33,636 nt of DNA. Origin: Kiritimatiellales bacterium. GTDB taxonomy: Bacteria > Verrucomicrobiota > Kiritimatiellia > Kiritimatiellales > Pontiellaceae. Under the pieces are notes generated by a model. The model made no database searches and was not told where the DNA came from. It saw only the letters and a list, made by a program, of their open reading frames with translations. The stretch is taken from positions 1 through 33,636 of the forward strand of contig QIHI01000108.1 of NCBI GenBank assembly GCA_003230915.1, written 5' to 3'. Of this stretch, positions 23,190 through 27,849 are shown in pieces. The position numbers were made by a program, and so were the translations under genes. The number at the start of each line of letters is the position of its first letter. Position 1 is the first letter of the stretch.

Positions 23190-24958
23190 TGCGAAAGCTC
23201 ATCACCAACATCATCGTGGTGCTTTTTGCCCTATGGTTTTTCCAGAGTGGGGTGAAACCGCCGAAGGAAACCAGCGCGGATTTCCAGCTCAATGCCTTTG
23301 CGCACCTGCCCGTGAAGTACGGCGGGCGCAAGAAACCAATCGATACACTGGCGCGTAATTTTTTGACGGTGCTGTCCGATAAGCAATCTCTCCGTATGGC
23401 AGACCGGAAGAGGATTACCGCAACGCAATGGCTGCTCGATAATATCTCCGGCCGTCCCGAAGCGATGGACTATAAGGTGTTCCGCATCGAAAACCTCGAT
23501 GTACTCTCAGGCCTCGGGCTGGAGGAGCGCAAACGGTTCCGCTATTCTTACCGCGAGCTATTGCCCAACCTTGGGAAGATCGATGCCGCCGTCCGTTCCG
23601 CCCACGGCAAGGAGGATCGCCAGCGCGATCTCTATGATAAGCAGGTCATAAAGGTAGCGAATAAGATATTCTTCTATCAAAATATGATGGCCTCGTTCGA
23701 AGACCCGACGGCAATCCCGACGGAGCAGTTGATGGCCACGGTGCAGCGCTATATTCGGTTGGAAAACTACTCGATCCCGCTCGTTATTCCGCGAACCCCC
23801 GGCAACCCAAGGTGGCGGCCGTTGATGAGCGCGCTGCTCGCCTCGCATCCGGCCATGAACGCCGTGATCGAGGGGCACGATATTTCCGTCGATCCATTGG
23901 CGCTGCATTTGAACGCGATGCTTGCGGCGTACCGAACGGGCGATGTGGAGCTATTCAACAGCGAGCTAATGGAATATGGAGCATTGCTTCAGGCCGACAC
24001 TCCCTCCGTGTTTGAAAAACTCTCCTTCGAGGTATTTTACAACCGTCTTGGCGCATTCATGAAATCCGCGTCGCTCTATCTTTTGGTCTTTGTCCTCAGC
24101 CTCTTCGGCTGGCTCTTCCGCAAGGAAGGCCTAGTCGGCGCGGCGCGTACGCTGATGGTCTGCGCGTTCATTCCACATACCTTGGCCATCATCGCCCGCG
24201 TTCTCCTTTCCGGCTACCCACCCGTCACCAATCTCTACTCGTCCGCCATCTTTATCGGCTGGGCGGCGGTCGCAGCAGGCATCGTCATCGAGCTTGTTTT
24301 TCGGAAAAAGGCGGCGGGCATGGGGAATCTGGTGGGTGGCATTGCCGGGTTTACCACACTGCTTATCGCGCACTTCCTCTCGGGCGATGGCGATACGATG
24401 GAGCAGATGCGCGCCGTACTCGATACCCGCTTCTGGCTGGCGACACACGTGATCACCATCACCCTCGGCTACATGGGGACCTTCGTCTCCGGCACCATTG
24501 CCATCTTTTATATTTTCGCCGGGCTGTTCACCCGGCGGCTAGACGTAGAGACCGGCGAAAACCTGTATCGCATGATGTACTCCACCACTTGCTTTGCGCT
24601 GTTGCTCAGCTTTGTCGGCACCGTGCTCGGCGGATTGTGGGCGGATGATTCGTGGGGGCGCTTCTGGGGTTGGGATCCTAAGGAAAACGGCGCGCTGATG
24701 ATCGTTATCTGGAACGCCATTATGCTGCATGCACGCTATGGAAGAATGGTGACCCCGCGCGGTTTCGCGCTCATGGCCGTGGGCGGGAACATCGTCACGG
24801 CGTGGTCGTGGTTCGGTGTCAATCAGCTTAGCGTTGGGCTGCACTCCTACGGTTTCACTGAATCCGCCAGCTTCTGGCTGATGGTTTTCTGCGCCTCGCA
24901 GTTCGCCATCATTCTGCTCGGCGCCGTTCCCCTCCGGTGGTGGCGAAGCAAACAATAA
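23189..24958 (+). CDS. ccsA: CcsA-family cytochrome c assembly protein with large N-terminal domain
   Basis: A 589-residue haem-handling membrane protein. After an N-terminal helix (residues 5-20), residues ~25-290 form an extra-cytoplasmic domain not found in minimal CcsA. The multi-helix core then follows. The tryptophan-rich haem-binding loop is GGLWADDSWGRFWGWDPKENGALM. Candidate axial histidines lie in FIPHTLAIIARV, ATHVITITLGYMG and GLHSYGF. ATG at 23189 overlaps the resB stop; an in-frame ATG at 23093 lies inside resB and is rejected. The 3' end is unusual: its last 105 bases recur 1,431 bp downstream (26285-26389), 36 of them identical, suggesting the present C-terminus was supplied by an inserted element. 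Confidence 0.93.
   Translation: MRKLITNIIVVLFALWFFQSGVKPPKETSADFQLNAFAHLPVKYGGRKKPIDTLARNFLTVLSDKQSLRMADRKRITATQWLLDNISGRPEAMDYKVFRIENLDVLSGLGLEERKRFRYSYRELLPNLGKIDAAVRSAHGKEDRQRDLYDKQVIKVANKIFFYQNMMASFEDPTAIPTEQLMATVQRYIRLENYSIPLVIPRTPGNPRWRPLMSALLASHPAMNAVIEGHDISVDPLALHLNAMLAAYRTGDVELFNSELMEYGALLQADTPSVFEKLSFEVFYNRLGAFMKSASLYLLVFVLSLFGWLFRKEGLVGAARTLMVCAFIPHTLAIIARVLLSGYPPVTNLYSSAIFIGWAAVAAGIVIELVFRKKAAGMGNLVGGIAGFTTLLIAHFLSGDGDTMEQMRAVLDTRFWLATHVITITLGYMGTFVSGTIAIFYIFAGLFTRRLDVETGENLYRMMYSTTCFALLLSFVGTVLGGLWADDSWGRFWGWDPKENGALMIVIWNAIMLHARYGRMVTPRGFALMAVGGNIVTAWSWFGVNQLSVGLHSYGFTESASFWLMVFCASQFAIILLGAVPLRWWRSKQ
24865..24900 (+). repeat. 36-bp direct repeat, left copy (inside ccsA)
   Basis: This copy, beginning CGCCAGCTTCTGG, is identical over 36 bases to 26296-26331. 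It encodes ASFWLMVFCASQ of CcsA. It is the candidate attachment core of the element between the copies. Confidence 0.9.
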
Positions 24959-25028
24959 AATAGGATAGACACCTTTTTCCCGTCATCAATGTTGAATGTT
25001 GAGACCTGACCTTGATGCCCTGAAATCC

Positions 25029-25157
25029 TTGGGTGTATAGCCCCGAGGTCAAACTGGAAAGGTTGATGCCTGCGAGCCTTCCGGTGAGCGGATTGAATGA
25101 CGAAGTGGTTTTGACTCCGTTACCGAGCGTGTATTCGATTCGCGAACCTCTTCCCAT
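25029..25157 (-). pseudogene. Rhs/YD-repeat protein remnant
   Basis: The minus strand encodes SRIEYTLGNGVKTTSSF followed by NPLTGRLAGINLSS. This matches the repeat pattern of Rhs/YD proteins (x-Y-x-NGV-x-T-x-x-x-x-x-P-x-TGRL-x-x-I). Only about one and a half repeats are recognisable before the reading frame turns into unrelated sequence, and no start or C-terminal toxin region is present. It is a short decayed fragment, probably brought with or left by a mobile element. Confidence 0.55.
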
Positions 25158-25228
25158 GCACCCTTTCTATAGATCTAAAAATCCGCTGCCAAACCGAAAT
25201 GGTAAAAAGATAGGATCGATACATTTTT

Positions 25229-25301
25229 TTGGTAGACACGCAAGATTGAGGGTCTTGTGGCCGTTAAGGCCGTGTGGGTTCGACTCCCACCTCGAGCACC
25301 A
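25229..25301 (+). pseudogene. 5'-truncated tRNA-Leu (anticodon GAG)
   Basis: From TTGGTAGAC of the D arm onwards this is a good leucine tRNA. The anticodon stem CAAGA/TCTTG surrounds loop TTGAGGG (anticodon GAG), followed by a variable arm TGGCCGTTAAGGCCGT. The T arm is GTGGG-TTCGACT-CCCAC, then CTCGAGC-A-CCA. The 5' acceptor strand (GCTCGAG expected) and the first half of the D arm are missing, replaced by an AT-rich stretch with T7. It cannot fold as a functional tRNA. A 3' tRNA fragment is the usual scar of integration by a tRNA-targeting element. Confidence 0.85.
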
Positions 25302-25365
25302 TTCTCTGTTGAGGACTTTGCAGAACTCAACACCCTTTGCCCTCGTCTTTGAGGGAGAGCCCGCA

Positions 25366-25674
25366 TCACCCATCCAATTCGTGAATCTTATGAATGATAT
25401 TCACAAGCTGCTCTCCCTTGTCCGTCAGAGAATAGACCGTTCGAGGGGGTAGTTCTTTGAACTTTTTTTTATGCAACAGCTTGTAGGAGGTCAACTTTCG
25501 AAGCCGCTCTGAAAGTACCTTCGTTGAAATTCCAGTGATGTGCCTCTCAAGAGCGCCGGGCCGATTAACGCCCTCCTTAACAGACATAAGAACGGAAACA
25601 GACCATTTGCAGCCCACTATCTGTTCGAGGCATTCGTAGTTTTTTCGCATAGTTGCCGATTTTTTTTCATTCAT
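25366..25674 (-). CDS. HxlR-family winged-helix transcriptional regulator
   Basis: A 102-residue MarR-like HxlR regulator. YECLEQIVGCKWSVSVLMSVKEG is the N-terminal dimer and first helix region. RPGALERHITGISTKVLSERLRKLTSYKLL is the helix-turn-helix, and the wing is KKKFKELPPRTVYSLTDKGEQL. Cysteines lie at 15 and 22; some HxlR proteins (for example HypR) sense oxidants or aldehydes through an N-terminal cysteine, so a redox role is plausible. It is divergent from a CPVC thioredoxin-like gene 135 bases away. Codon choice and the adenine/thymine-rich start (four Lys/Glu codons of A runs) look unlike the arg or dap genes. No Shine-Dalgarno is visible, and Met9 is an alternative start. Confidence 0.85.
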   Translation of the reverse strand: MNEKKSATMRKNYECLEQIVGCKWSVSVLMSVKEGVNRPGALERHITGISTKVLSERLRKLTSYKLLHKKKFKELPPRTVYSLTDKGEQLVNIIHKIHELDG

Positions 25675-25809
25675 GACGTCAATATTTTACACCATTTTAT
25701 GCCCTACGCACTGAAAAGTGCCTCCTTTTTCAAGCAAGAGATTTCGAATACGGTCTAGCTGTTGGTCGGAATGGTTCTGGTTGGCGGTTAAATTAAAAGG
25801 AGAAAGATC
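25675..25809. promoter_or_regulatory. Divergent control region between hxlR-like and thioredoxin-like genes
   Basis: A perfect 5-bp inverted repeat GCACT-GAAA-AGTGC lies at 25708-25721, roughly between the two genes and within 40-50 bases of the regulator start. GACGTC at 25675-25680 is a small palindrome next to the regulator start. Either could be the operator for the HxlR protein. AT-rich elements such as TAAAAT on the minus strand near 25684-25700 could serve as a -10 for the regulator, but no convincing pair of hexamers is seen for either direction. Confidence 0.4.
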
Positions 25810-26043
25810 ATGAATAATGCAATATTCTATCACGCAGGGTGCCCTGTTTGTATTGAAGCAGAGCAGAAGGTTGCGGAAGCGATCGATAAGGCTCGGTTTC
25901 ACGTGGAGATCGTTCACCTCGGCGAGGAAAAAAATCGACTCCCCGAAGCGGAGCGGGCGGGTGTCAAATCCGTACCTGCCTTGGTTCTTAATGGTGTTCC
26001 GTTTCATATCAATCATGGGGCAAATCTTTCTGCACTGAAATAA
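25810..26043 (+). CDS. Small thioredoxin/glutaredoxin-fold protein with CPVC motif
   Basis: A 77-residue redox protein. It begins with a strand AIFYHAG leading to the active-site motif CPVC (residues 11-14). The conserved cis-proline is Pro56 in KSVPALVLNG. The length corresponds to a minimal glutaredoxin-like fold lacking the last helix. It is not a classical glutaredoxin (CPYC) and may be a specialised disulfide reductase. AAGGAGA precedes the ATG. A strong terminator 20 bases after the stop makes it a one-gene transcript. It is divergent from the HxlR-type regulator, which suggests that regulator controls it. Confidence 0.82.
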   Translation: MNNAIFYHAGCPVCIEAEQKVAEAIDKARFHVEIVHLGEEKNRLPEAERAGVKSVPALVLNGVPFHINHGANLSALK

Positions 26044-26062
26044 GCGGTCACTGCCGCAATTT

Positions 26063-26101
26063 CAGGTCTTCTCAAGTAAAAATGGGAAGGCCTGTTTTTT
26101 T
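26063..26101 (+). terminator. Intrinsic terminator of the CPVC gene
   Basis: CAGGTCTTCTC (26063-26073) pairs with GGGAAGGCCTG (26084-26094), with two T-G pairs, around a 10-base A-rich loop, followed by seven T. It is a strong terminator placed directly after the stop at 26043. Confidence 0.9.
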
Positions 26102-26284
26102 GCCTAAGTCAGTGGAAAGGTGTCAGTCCTTCTATGGAGACTGTCAATCGCTTGGGTCTATAATCTCTCCTTTTTTGATCTAAAGACGGCTCAGTTGATT
26201 TGAAAGTTCGTTCAGAAAGACTGAACGGACAACCTTCTATCCGTGCGAGGTTTTACACCTCTGGCCACCTAATGCTGCGTACGC

Positions 26285-26389
26285 TTCACCCAATTCGCCA
26301 GCTTCTGGCTGATGGTTTTCTGCGCCTCGCAACTTGCGGTAGTCCTGCTGGGTCTTGTTCCCTTCAAGTTTTGGACAAGCAACCGGTAG
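26285..26389 (+). pseudogene. Displaced 3' end of ccsA
   Basis: This stretch reads FTQFASFWLMVFCASQLAV and then VLLGLVPFKFWTSNR followed by TAG. It aligns without gaps to the C-terminus of the intact CcsA (FTESASFWLMVFCASQFAI, ILLGAVPLRWWRSKQ, stop). The offset is exactly 1,431 bases over the whole length, with 36 identical bases in the middle and clear divergence in the final 58. An in-frame TAA lies a few codons upstream (26270-26272), so this is only a fragment of a gene end. It is probably the old ccsA tail left behind when an element inserted. Confidence 0.85.
26296..26331 (+). repeat. 36-bp direct repeat, right copy
   Basis: Identical to 24865-24900. It lies inside the displaced ccsA tail and marks the right boundary of the 1,431-bp inserted unit. 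Confidence 0.9.
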
Positions 26390-26555
26390 AGTACTTCACG
26401 AATGCGATGCCGTATGTTCTGTATTGGAAGAACGGACTCTATCCCGTCCTGCCGAAGTCAAGGCACTACTCCATACGATGACCACGCATAGGGTGGCCTT
26501 CCGCTACAGATCGCGCTTAAAAAGGAAGTTTCTTGCGGTTGGAATCCTTTTTCAT

Positions 26556-26583
26556 TTGCTTTTCCTGCGCGTGGAAATATGTT
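26556..26583 (+). promoter_or_regulatory. Possible promoter of the tol-pal operon
   Basis: TTGCTT at 26556-26561 and TATGTT at 26578-26583 are 16 bases apart, giving a leader of about 35 bases before the tolQ ATG at 26627. Both hexamers are moderate matches. Confidence 0.4.
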
Positions 26584-26626
26584 TGGAACAGCTTTTTCAA
26601 ACCCCCAAATAAGGACGATAACGACT

Positions 26627-27379
26627 ATGGATCTGTTCAATTCGCTACTGGTTTCGCTACCGATTGCCGACATGGGCAGTGCTTTTTCCGATAGCACCGC
26701 CCCTGGCAAGAGCATTGTGATTTTACTGTTTATCGGATCCGCTTGGGCTTGGACGATTATGTTGACCAAATGGTGGGAGTTACGCTGCGCGGAGCGGGCT
26801 ACGGCGGATTTTCTGGGGGCCTTTCGTTCTGATCGCAACCCGACCGCGCTGTTTACTCGGCGTGAGGAATATCTCGGTGCGCCAGTGAACATCATCTACA
26901 AGGCAGGCTGCGCCGCTCTCGGCGGGGAACTGCAGGCGCATGGTATCGACCCCGACGACCTGTTGATGGGCGATATGACCTCTGAGGCGCATCGCCGCCT
27001 CAGCCTCAATCAGCTTGAAACCCTGCGGGCAGTGGTGGATCGTAATGTAGCCGATGAGGCACTGAACCTCGAAGACAAGATGGGCCTGTTGGCCACGGCC
27101 GTGAGTGCTGCACCATTCCTCGGCCTGCTCGGGACGGTTTGGGGTGTGATGGATGCCTTTGCGGGTATGGCCATTTCGGGGAATGCTGCGCTTTCGGCGG
27201 TGGCGCCTGGCATTTCTGGCGCCCTATTAACCACGATCGTCGGTCTGCTTGTGGCGCTGCCTTCGATGATTGGTTATAACCTGCTTTCAAGCAAGATTCG
27301 GACGATTTCTGTGCAGATGGATAACTTTGCTCAGGAGTATATTTCGGCCATTCAAAATTCGTATGTAATTGAAGGGTAG
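26627..27379 (+). CDS. tolQ: TolQ/ExbB-type proton channel protein
   Basis: A 250-residue MotA/TolQ/ExbB-family protein that with TolR forms the proton-driven motor of the Tol-Pal system in the inner membrane. Three hydrophobic segments are visible: GKSIVILLFIGSAWAWTIML (about residues 27-46), KMGLLATAVSAAPFLGLLGTVWGVMDAF (about 143-170), and AVAPGISGALLTTIVGLLVALPSMIGYNLL (about 180-210). Signatures are the G-L-L-G-T-V-W-G and APGI-x-x-ALLTT motifs. ATG at 26627 is chosen because AAGGA lies upstream at a workable distance; an in-frame ATG at 26579 overlaps the likely promoter. TolQ is preferred over ExbB because tolA, tolB and pal follow. Confidence 0.92.
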   Translation: MDLFNSLLVSLPIADMGSAFSDSTAPGKSIVILLFIGSAWAWTIMLTKWWELRCAERATADFLGAFRSDRNPTALFTRREEYLGAPVNIIYKAGCAALGGELQAHGIDPDDLLMGDMTSEAHRRLSLNQLETLRAVVDRNVADEALNLEDKMGLLATAVSAAPFLGLLGTVWGVMDAFAGMAISGNAALSAVAPGISGALLTTIVGLLVALPSMIGYNLLSSKIRTISVQMDNFAQEYISAIQNSYVIEG

Positions 27380-27444
27380 AGGAGAACGCCTTGGGCTTTA
27401 GAACTTAAAACTTAACACTCCATACCTTAAAAACTGTATTCATC

Positions 27445-27849
27445 ATGGCAAGACGCACCAGCTTAGTTTCATTGAATCAGATCAGCGACATCAACATGAC
27501 GCCGCTGATGGATCTGACGTTTATCCTGCTGATCACCTTTATCATTACCTTTCCGTTGATTGAACAGGGGGTTGCGATCAATCTGCCGAAGGGGAAGGCT
27601 GCGGATATGCAGGATGCTGTTTCGCGGTCGATCAGTCTAAATTTTGATAAACAGCTCTATCTCGACGAACTACCGGTTTCGAAAGAAGAGCTGGTGGCGG
27701 CCCTGCTGGATGTGGTGGCGGAGAATCCAGATACGACCATTTATGTACGCGCCGACCGTACGCTTCCATATGGCGAGGTGGTGGATGTGATGCGAATGCT
27801 CCATGAGGCCAATATTACGCGAATGGCCCTGGTGACGGAAGGGGAGTAG
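27445..27849 (+). CDS. tolR: TolR/ExbD-type protein
   Basis: A 134-residue inner-membrane protein with one helix (about residues 19-39). The conserved proton-carrying aspartate is Asp23 in TPLMDLTFILLITF, the same position as in E. coli TolR. A periplasmic domain follows with SISLNFDKQLYLDELPVSKEEL and the TIYVRADRTLPYGEVVDVMRMLHEANITRMALVT segment typical of ExbD/TolR. It lies 65 bases after tolQ; that gap is AT-rich with repeated AACTTAAAACTTAA-like words and no obvious structure. No strong ribosome-binding site precedes the ATG. Confidence 0.94.
   Translation: MARRTSLVSLNQISDINMTPLMDLTFILLITFIITFPLIEQGVAINLPKGKAADMQDAVSRSISLNFDKQLYLDELPVSKEELVAALLDVVAENPDTTIYVRADRTLPYGEVVDVMRMLHEANITRMALVTEGE

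Follow-up and report, generated by a model that had tools for sequence, protein, structure and literature searches.

The 33,636-nt window analyzed here is one whole contig of a metagenome-assembled genome (1.9 Mb, 143 contigs). It carries the cytochrome-assembly housekeeping gene ccsA, a second copy of the ccsA 3' end farther downstream, an insert of short fragments and two small genes between these ends, and, beyond them, exbB (Table 1). We call the end of ccsA that follows a shared 36-nt block tail A, and the corresponding end of the downstream fragment tail B. The ccsA frame stays open through tail A, giving 588 aa in the aligned frame. For comparison we used 28 genomes from the genus, which belongs to the Pontiellaceae in the Kiritimatiellia. 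Relatives that carry names are metagenome assemblies of Pontiellaceae and Verrucomicrobia, and a scan of GTDB-220 for nearer relatives returned none above 77%. The CcsA search covered the relatives' genomes, 24 of them from the genus. Orthologs of ccsA exist in most genus genomes and are mostly 60–83% identical, with the closest proteins in G012, G003, and G007 (81–83%) and in G008 (77%). The body of the gene is nearest to those of G012 and G007. G008 possesses two resB-ccsA loci (C15 and C94), the latter cut by a contig end.

Table 1. Features of the ccsA–exbB interval, in window coordinates. G numbers denote genomes and C numbers contigs.
Feature	Position	Strand	Evidence or remark
ccsA (Cytochrom_C_asm, ResC-like); frame ends in tail A	23192–24958	+	Pfam PF01578, E 2e-21
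36-nt block, left copy	24865–24900	+	identical to 26296–26331
Tail A of ccsA, including stop	24901–24958	+	34/58 identical to tail B
Repeat-like motif ATAGGATAGACACCTTTTT, directly 3' of the ccsA stop	24958–24978	+	near copies on C5, C18 (twice), and C52 of the same genome
Rhs/YD-repeat gene-like fragment	25021–25138	-	79% identical to G008:C31
tRNA-Leu(GAG) 3' part lacking the first 15 nt, foreign	25229–25303	+	similarity to complete tRNA-Leu(GAG)
HxlR-family regulator gene	25366–25674	-	PF01638, E 1e-20
Small thioredoxin-like protein, CPVC motif	25810–26043	+	PF13192, E 1e-7
Truncated noncoding end of an IS110-family insertion sequence	26116–26283	+	89% to two G005 copies
Shared 4-nt GCTT, IS110/ccsA-fragment junction	26280–26283	+	in G005 IS copy and in relatives' ccsA
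Orphan ccsA 3' fragment, tail B	26284–26389	+	match to ccsA end
36-nt block, right copy	26296–26331	+	identical to 24865–24900
Palindromic repeat start, supplies the tail B TAG stop	26387–26463	+	83% to an intergenic repeat at G012:C148
Conserved exbB leader and exbB	26537–27379	+	leader homology to G007, G020, G003; PF01618

The fragments of the insert match different places in different relatives. Specifically, the G008 match to the Rhs-like fragment is located within a series of Rhs-like open frames. The tRNA-Leu(GAG) piece shares 88% identity with this genome's C22 copy and up to 95% with those of relatives; ARAGORN calls a complete tRNA-Leu(GAG) on C22 and in relatives, and makes no call at the truncated piece. 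G005 has two nearly identical 1.34-kb copies of the element to whose end the IS110 segment corresponds, and their gene encodes a Transposase_20/DEDD_Tnp_IS110 protein (PF02371, E 4e-19, above cut-off; the PF01548 match, E 2e-6, falls just below its own). The segment in the window is end sequence only, with no transposase, and many G001 contigs break in this same repeat. Rfam gave no matches in 24000–27500. Judged by these sequence matches, the insert is no single coherent element but a patchwork of pieces unrelated to one another, among which the HxlR/thioredoxin-like gene pair is intact. For this reason, the proposal of the first-pass annotation that the two ccsA ends enclose one integrative or nonautonomous element, or its remnant, is not supported.

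The observation behind that annotation holds. The end of ccsA (24854–24958) indeed aligns without gaps to 26285–26389 at an offset of 1,431, with 78 of 105 bases identical. The matches comprise 8/11 bases before the block, 36/36 within it, and 34/58 after it, so the identical 36-base block that the annotation described is present. The diverged 58-base tails were said to encode similar residues; tail B translates as FTQFASFWLMVFCASQLAVVLLGLVPFKFWTSNR, and the codon differences between the tails are typical of protein-coding orthologs from two species. Tail B lies in sense orientation on the exbB side and is complete to its stop codon, the TAG of which coincides with the first bases of the palindromic repeat at 26387. 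We looked for the rest of ccsA at the tail B site and found no further part. To the left of the right-hand block lie about 12 nt of ccsA, then the IS110 end up to 26283; the candidate reading of this flank as wholly ccsA was rejected. No second ccsA tail occurs in the approximately 20 other genus genomes that have a ccsA 3' end.

How unusual is the 36-nt block? Over the same stretch, the longest identical run in 120 genus ortholog pairs is 26, and in a simulation that keeps sitewise conservation and total identity, a run of at least 36 has a probability of about 0.001. On these two sequence comparisons, the block probably arose by recombination. Runs of at least 36 do occur at conserved motifs in other parts of ccsA, in 14 of 136 ortholog pairs. 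The identity core stands at both boundaries of the insert, within the ccsA 3' end, and diverged flanks around an identical block form the pattern of a reciprocal exchange.

The explanation that we prefer, at a probability of roughly 0.48, is that the locus is the scar of a homologous single-crossover integration, via the 36-nt block, of an end-joined foreign fragment. The notion is that the donor was probably another Pontiellaceae species related to this one, and that its DNA fragment would have comprised the 3' end of ccsA, then intergenic debris and the hxlR/thioredoxin-like pair. The ends of this fragment would have been joined at the 4-nt GCTT, IS110 debris to ccsA, yielding a circle with roughly 110 nt of ccsA. 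A single RecA-type crossover inside the block could then have integrated the circle into the resident chromosome, fusing the resident ccsA body to donor tail A and stranding resident tail B downstream as an orphan, before exbB. The donor ccsA would read CTTCACCCAATTCGCC, block, and tail A, followed by the repeat at 24958 and the Rhs fragment. We infer the donor, a circular intermediate, homologous recombination as the mechanism, and the identity of the resident tail. The locus itself displays a homology anchor with partial locus duplication (~105 nt, including the identical block) and a non-homologous joint with little microhomology, the GCTT at 26280–26283, which is what end-joining would leave. 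Likewise, the exbB side, in sense and through the stop codon, is where a displaced resident tail should be expected. Against the crossover, a 36-nt tract is short. No donor genome has come to light. In E. coli, incoming molecules that had lost part of their homology and had recircularized integrated by a single crossover, producing duplications of 109–950 bp in 14 sequenced clones (PMC3240628). The duplication described here is of that size class.

Single-crossover integration implies that tail B is resident and that tail A came from the donor, an assignment on which the tails themselves bear as follows. By count, tail A is nearest to G008, with 36 of 48 positions identical, a difference that is not significant; its identity to close relatives, 27–32 of 48, is a normal distance. 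The candidate view that tail A clearly derives from G008 was dropped, as the nearest count lacks significance. Between close species, tail identity normally reaches only about 60–80%. Because both tails lie at the expected between-species distance, tail A could be the native ccsA end. The first-pass annotation had suggested a tree of CcsA C termini, and the check was made by likelihood placement of the 55-nt tails. Tail A fits worse at G012 than at G008 by 5.2 lnL (sd 2.8), and the G003 and G006 positions suit it equally well; no single placement was obtained for tail B. The proposal that tail B is the displaced old end stands in part. The scar is unique to this genome, the block looks recombinant, and the right-hand copy lies in sense, on the exbB side, with its stop. 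The relatives used for the empty-site comparison have no second tail and lie at a distance that hides the exact empty site. The 55-nt tails give no resident or donor assignment.

The main rival explanation, a possible one that we hold only tentatively, is that tail A is native and tail B a stray piece of a ccsA 3' end, which came from another species or a lost paralog and was captured among insertion sequence and repeat debris. The 36-nt identity would then reflect chance conservation or later gene conversion. Repeat debris does lie on both sides of tail B, the distance of tail A from its close relatives is a normal one, and the genus does contain paralogous resB-ccsA loci, as exemplified by the second G008 locus. 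However, under capture, coincidence must explain why the fragment shares an identical 36-nt run with ccsA, reads in sense, ends exactly at the gene's 3' end, and sits beside exbB.

From about 26537, within the exbB leader, the sequence is again homologous to relatives, and the original neighbor cluster continues. In G007 and G020, the gene order is ccsA, ilvC (opposite strand), exbB, exbD, tonB, tolB, and pal. In G003, one contig ends with ccsA and then ilvC, and another carries the ilvC start, exbB leader, and tolB, an arrangement that fits the ccsA–ilvC–exbB order. The class I ilvC that neighbors ccsA in these three genomes is missing here (26390–26536). The sole ilvC match in the genome is a remote 512-aa homolog on another contig, and a search of the insert region for ilvC remnants revealed none that was convincing. 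Loss of ilvC between ccsA and exbB is an event either separate from or linked to the insertion.

The two ends of ccsA also invite comparison with prophage e14, which provides the E. coli icd gene with a replacement 3' end and leaves the old end past its far boundary (PMC6379469). As the first-pass annotation proposed, an element (a prophage, an integrative element, or a nonautonomous relative) could, with this same anatomy, have integrated site-specifically at the ccsA 3' end, the 36-nt block being its attachment core, tail A the replacement, and tail B the displaced pseudo-end. We consider that unlikely. The insert is a patchwork and, as the first-pass annotation had observed, encodes no integrase: its only genes are those for the HxlR and thioredoxin-like proteins. 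Searching with PF00589 (tyrosine recombinases) identified, among the matches listed, only two proteins in this genome (on C14 and C75) and none on this contig. The search for recombinases next to ccsA that the first-pass annotation had suggested for the phylum was made for tyrosine recombinases in the genus, and no PF00589 match lies close to ccsA among the matches listed. Nor does any other genus genome exhibit a double tail, and we found no paper in which ccsA is named as a site of integration. Given that neither a nearby tyrosine recombinase nor another double tail was seen in the genus, recurrent integration at ccsA is not supported, and the idea of its 3' end as an integration target was not sustained. 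It is highly improbable that ccsA 3' ends serve as an unrecognized attachment site for a family of small nonautonomous Kiritimatiellia elements that carry substitute tails and rely for movement on a recombinase whose gene lies elsewhere. Because the insert has no integrase, and the genome's two tyrosine recombinases are its only listed ones, with none listed near ccsA, we prefer the homologous single crossover.

A further explanation, decidedly unlikely, is an assembly chimera in which two strains were joined at the repeated block. The window is one contig among 143, and in G001 contigs break at repeats of this kind. Nevertheless, a switch at the block leaves the second junction (26283/26284) unexplained, and both flanks match the genome's own neighborhood; a chimera is thus disfavored by its need for two separate joints. 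The final k-mer of common assemblers is longer than 36 nt, which likewise counts against it.

Most likely, then, the locus is a small scar amid broken mobile DNA and not a new element with its own attachment site. Such a recombination scar is ordinary but instructive. Like e14 in icd, the event would have given its target gene a new 3' end and left the old one as a duplicated pseudo-gene end. Unlike e14, a prophage that integrates site-specifically and excises, there is no integrase, coherent element, or site reuse here. The arrangement more generally resembles single crossovers by recircularized DNA and homology-facilitated illegitimate recombination, in which foreign DNA comes to lie beside a homology anchor and part of the homologous locus is duplicated (at least 109 bp in E. 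coli; PMC3240628). In contrast to the E. coli case, ours is inferred from a natural genome, with an anchor of only 36 nt and between-species donor divergence. Orphan 3' ends and immunity genes are also known from the Vibrio cholerae T6SS/Rhs loci, for which homology-facilitated recombination, with no integrase, has been proposed (PMC5361080). There, as proposed here, a new 3' region was inserted and the old end was pushed downstream without an integrase; the displaced parts in V. cholerae are, however, effector–immunity parts under selection, whereas here the displaced part is the tail of a housekeeping gene. If our preferred explanation is right, the locus is a natural and well-preserved case of a conserved housekeeping gene that received a new 3' end by integrase-free interspecies recombination, and the old ccsA end persists as a fossil. 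A displaced gene tail alone does not prove a site-specific integrative element.

Several observations concern the mobile DNA of the group. REP sequences are among the sites at which IS110 family members insert (PMC11208160). The noncoding end at 26116–26283 comes from such an element and, unlike complete IS110 elements, is truncated and has no transposase. The family member found in G005 (L257 and L258) and at G001 contig ends has a long noncoding stretch after its transposase gene, is inserted beside GGTGTCAGTCC-type repeats, and is a candidate for bridge-RNA analysis.

Among the matches listed, a tRNA-Leu gene and a tyrosine recombinase lie within a few hundred bases of each other at G010:C89, G042:C253, G016:C127, G021:C2 (1324 kb), G024:C1 (848 kb), G012:C103, G003:C154, and G009:C273. 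Given this repeated proximity, the tRNA-Leu genes of the genus seem to be a hot spot for integrative elements.

Finally, the HxlR/CPVC thioredoxin-like pair (25366–26043) is sporadic in Kiritimatiellia, occurring in 15 of 240 genomes, this one included. The divergent genes are linked in 13 of the 14 other Kiritimatiellia genomes with a match, and the pair adjoins various genes in the seven neighborhoods compared. It has the look of a two-gene redox module that spreads horizontally. If our preferred explanation is right, its presence here shows how accessory genes, a redox regulator and its thioredoxin-like partner, may settle beside core genes.
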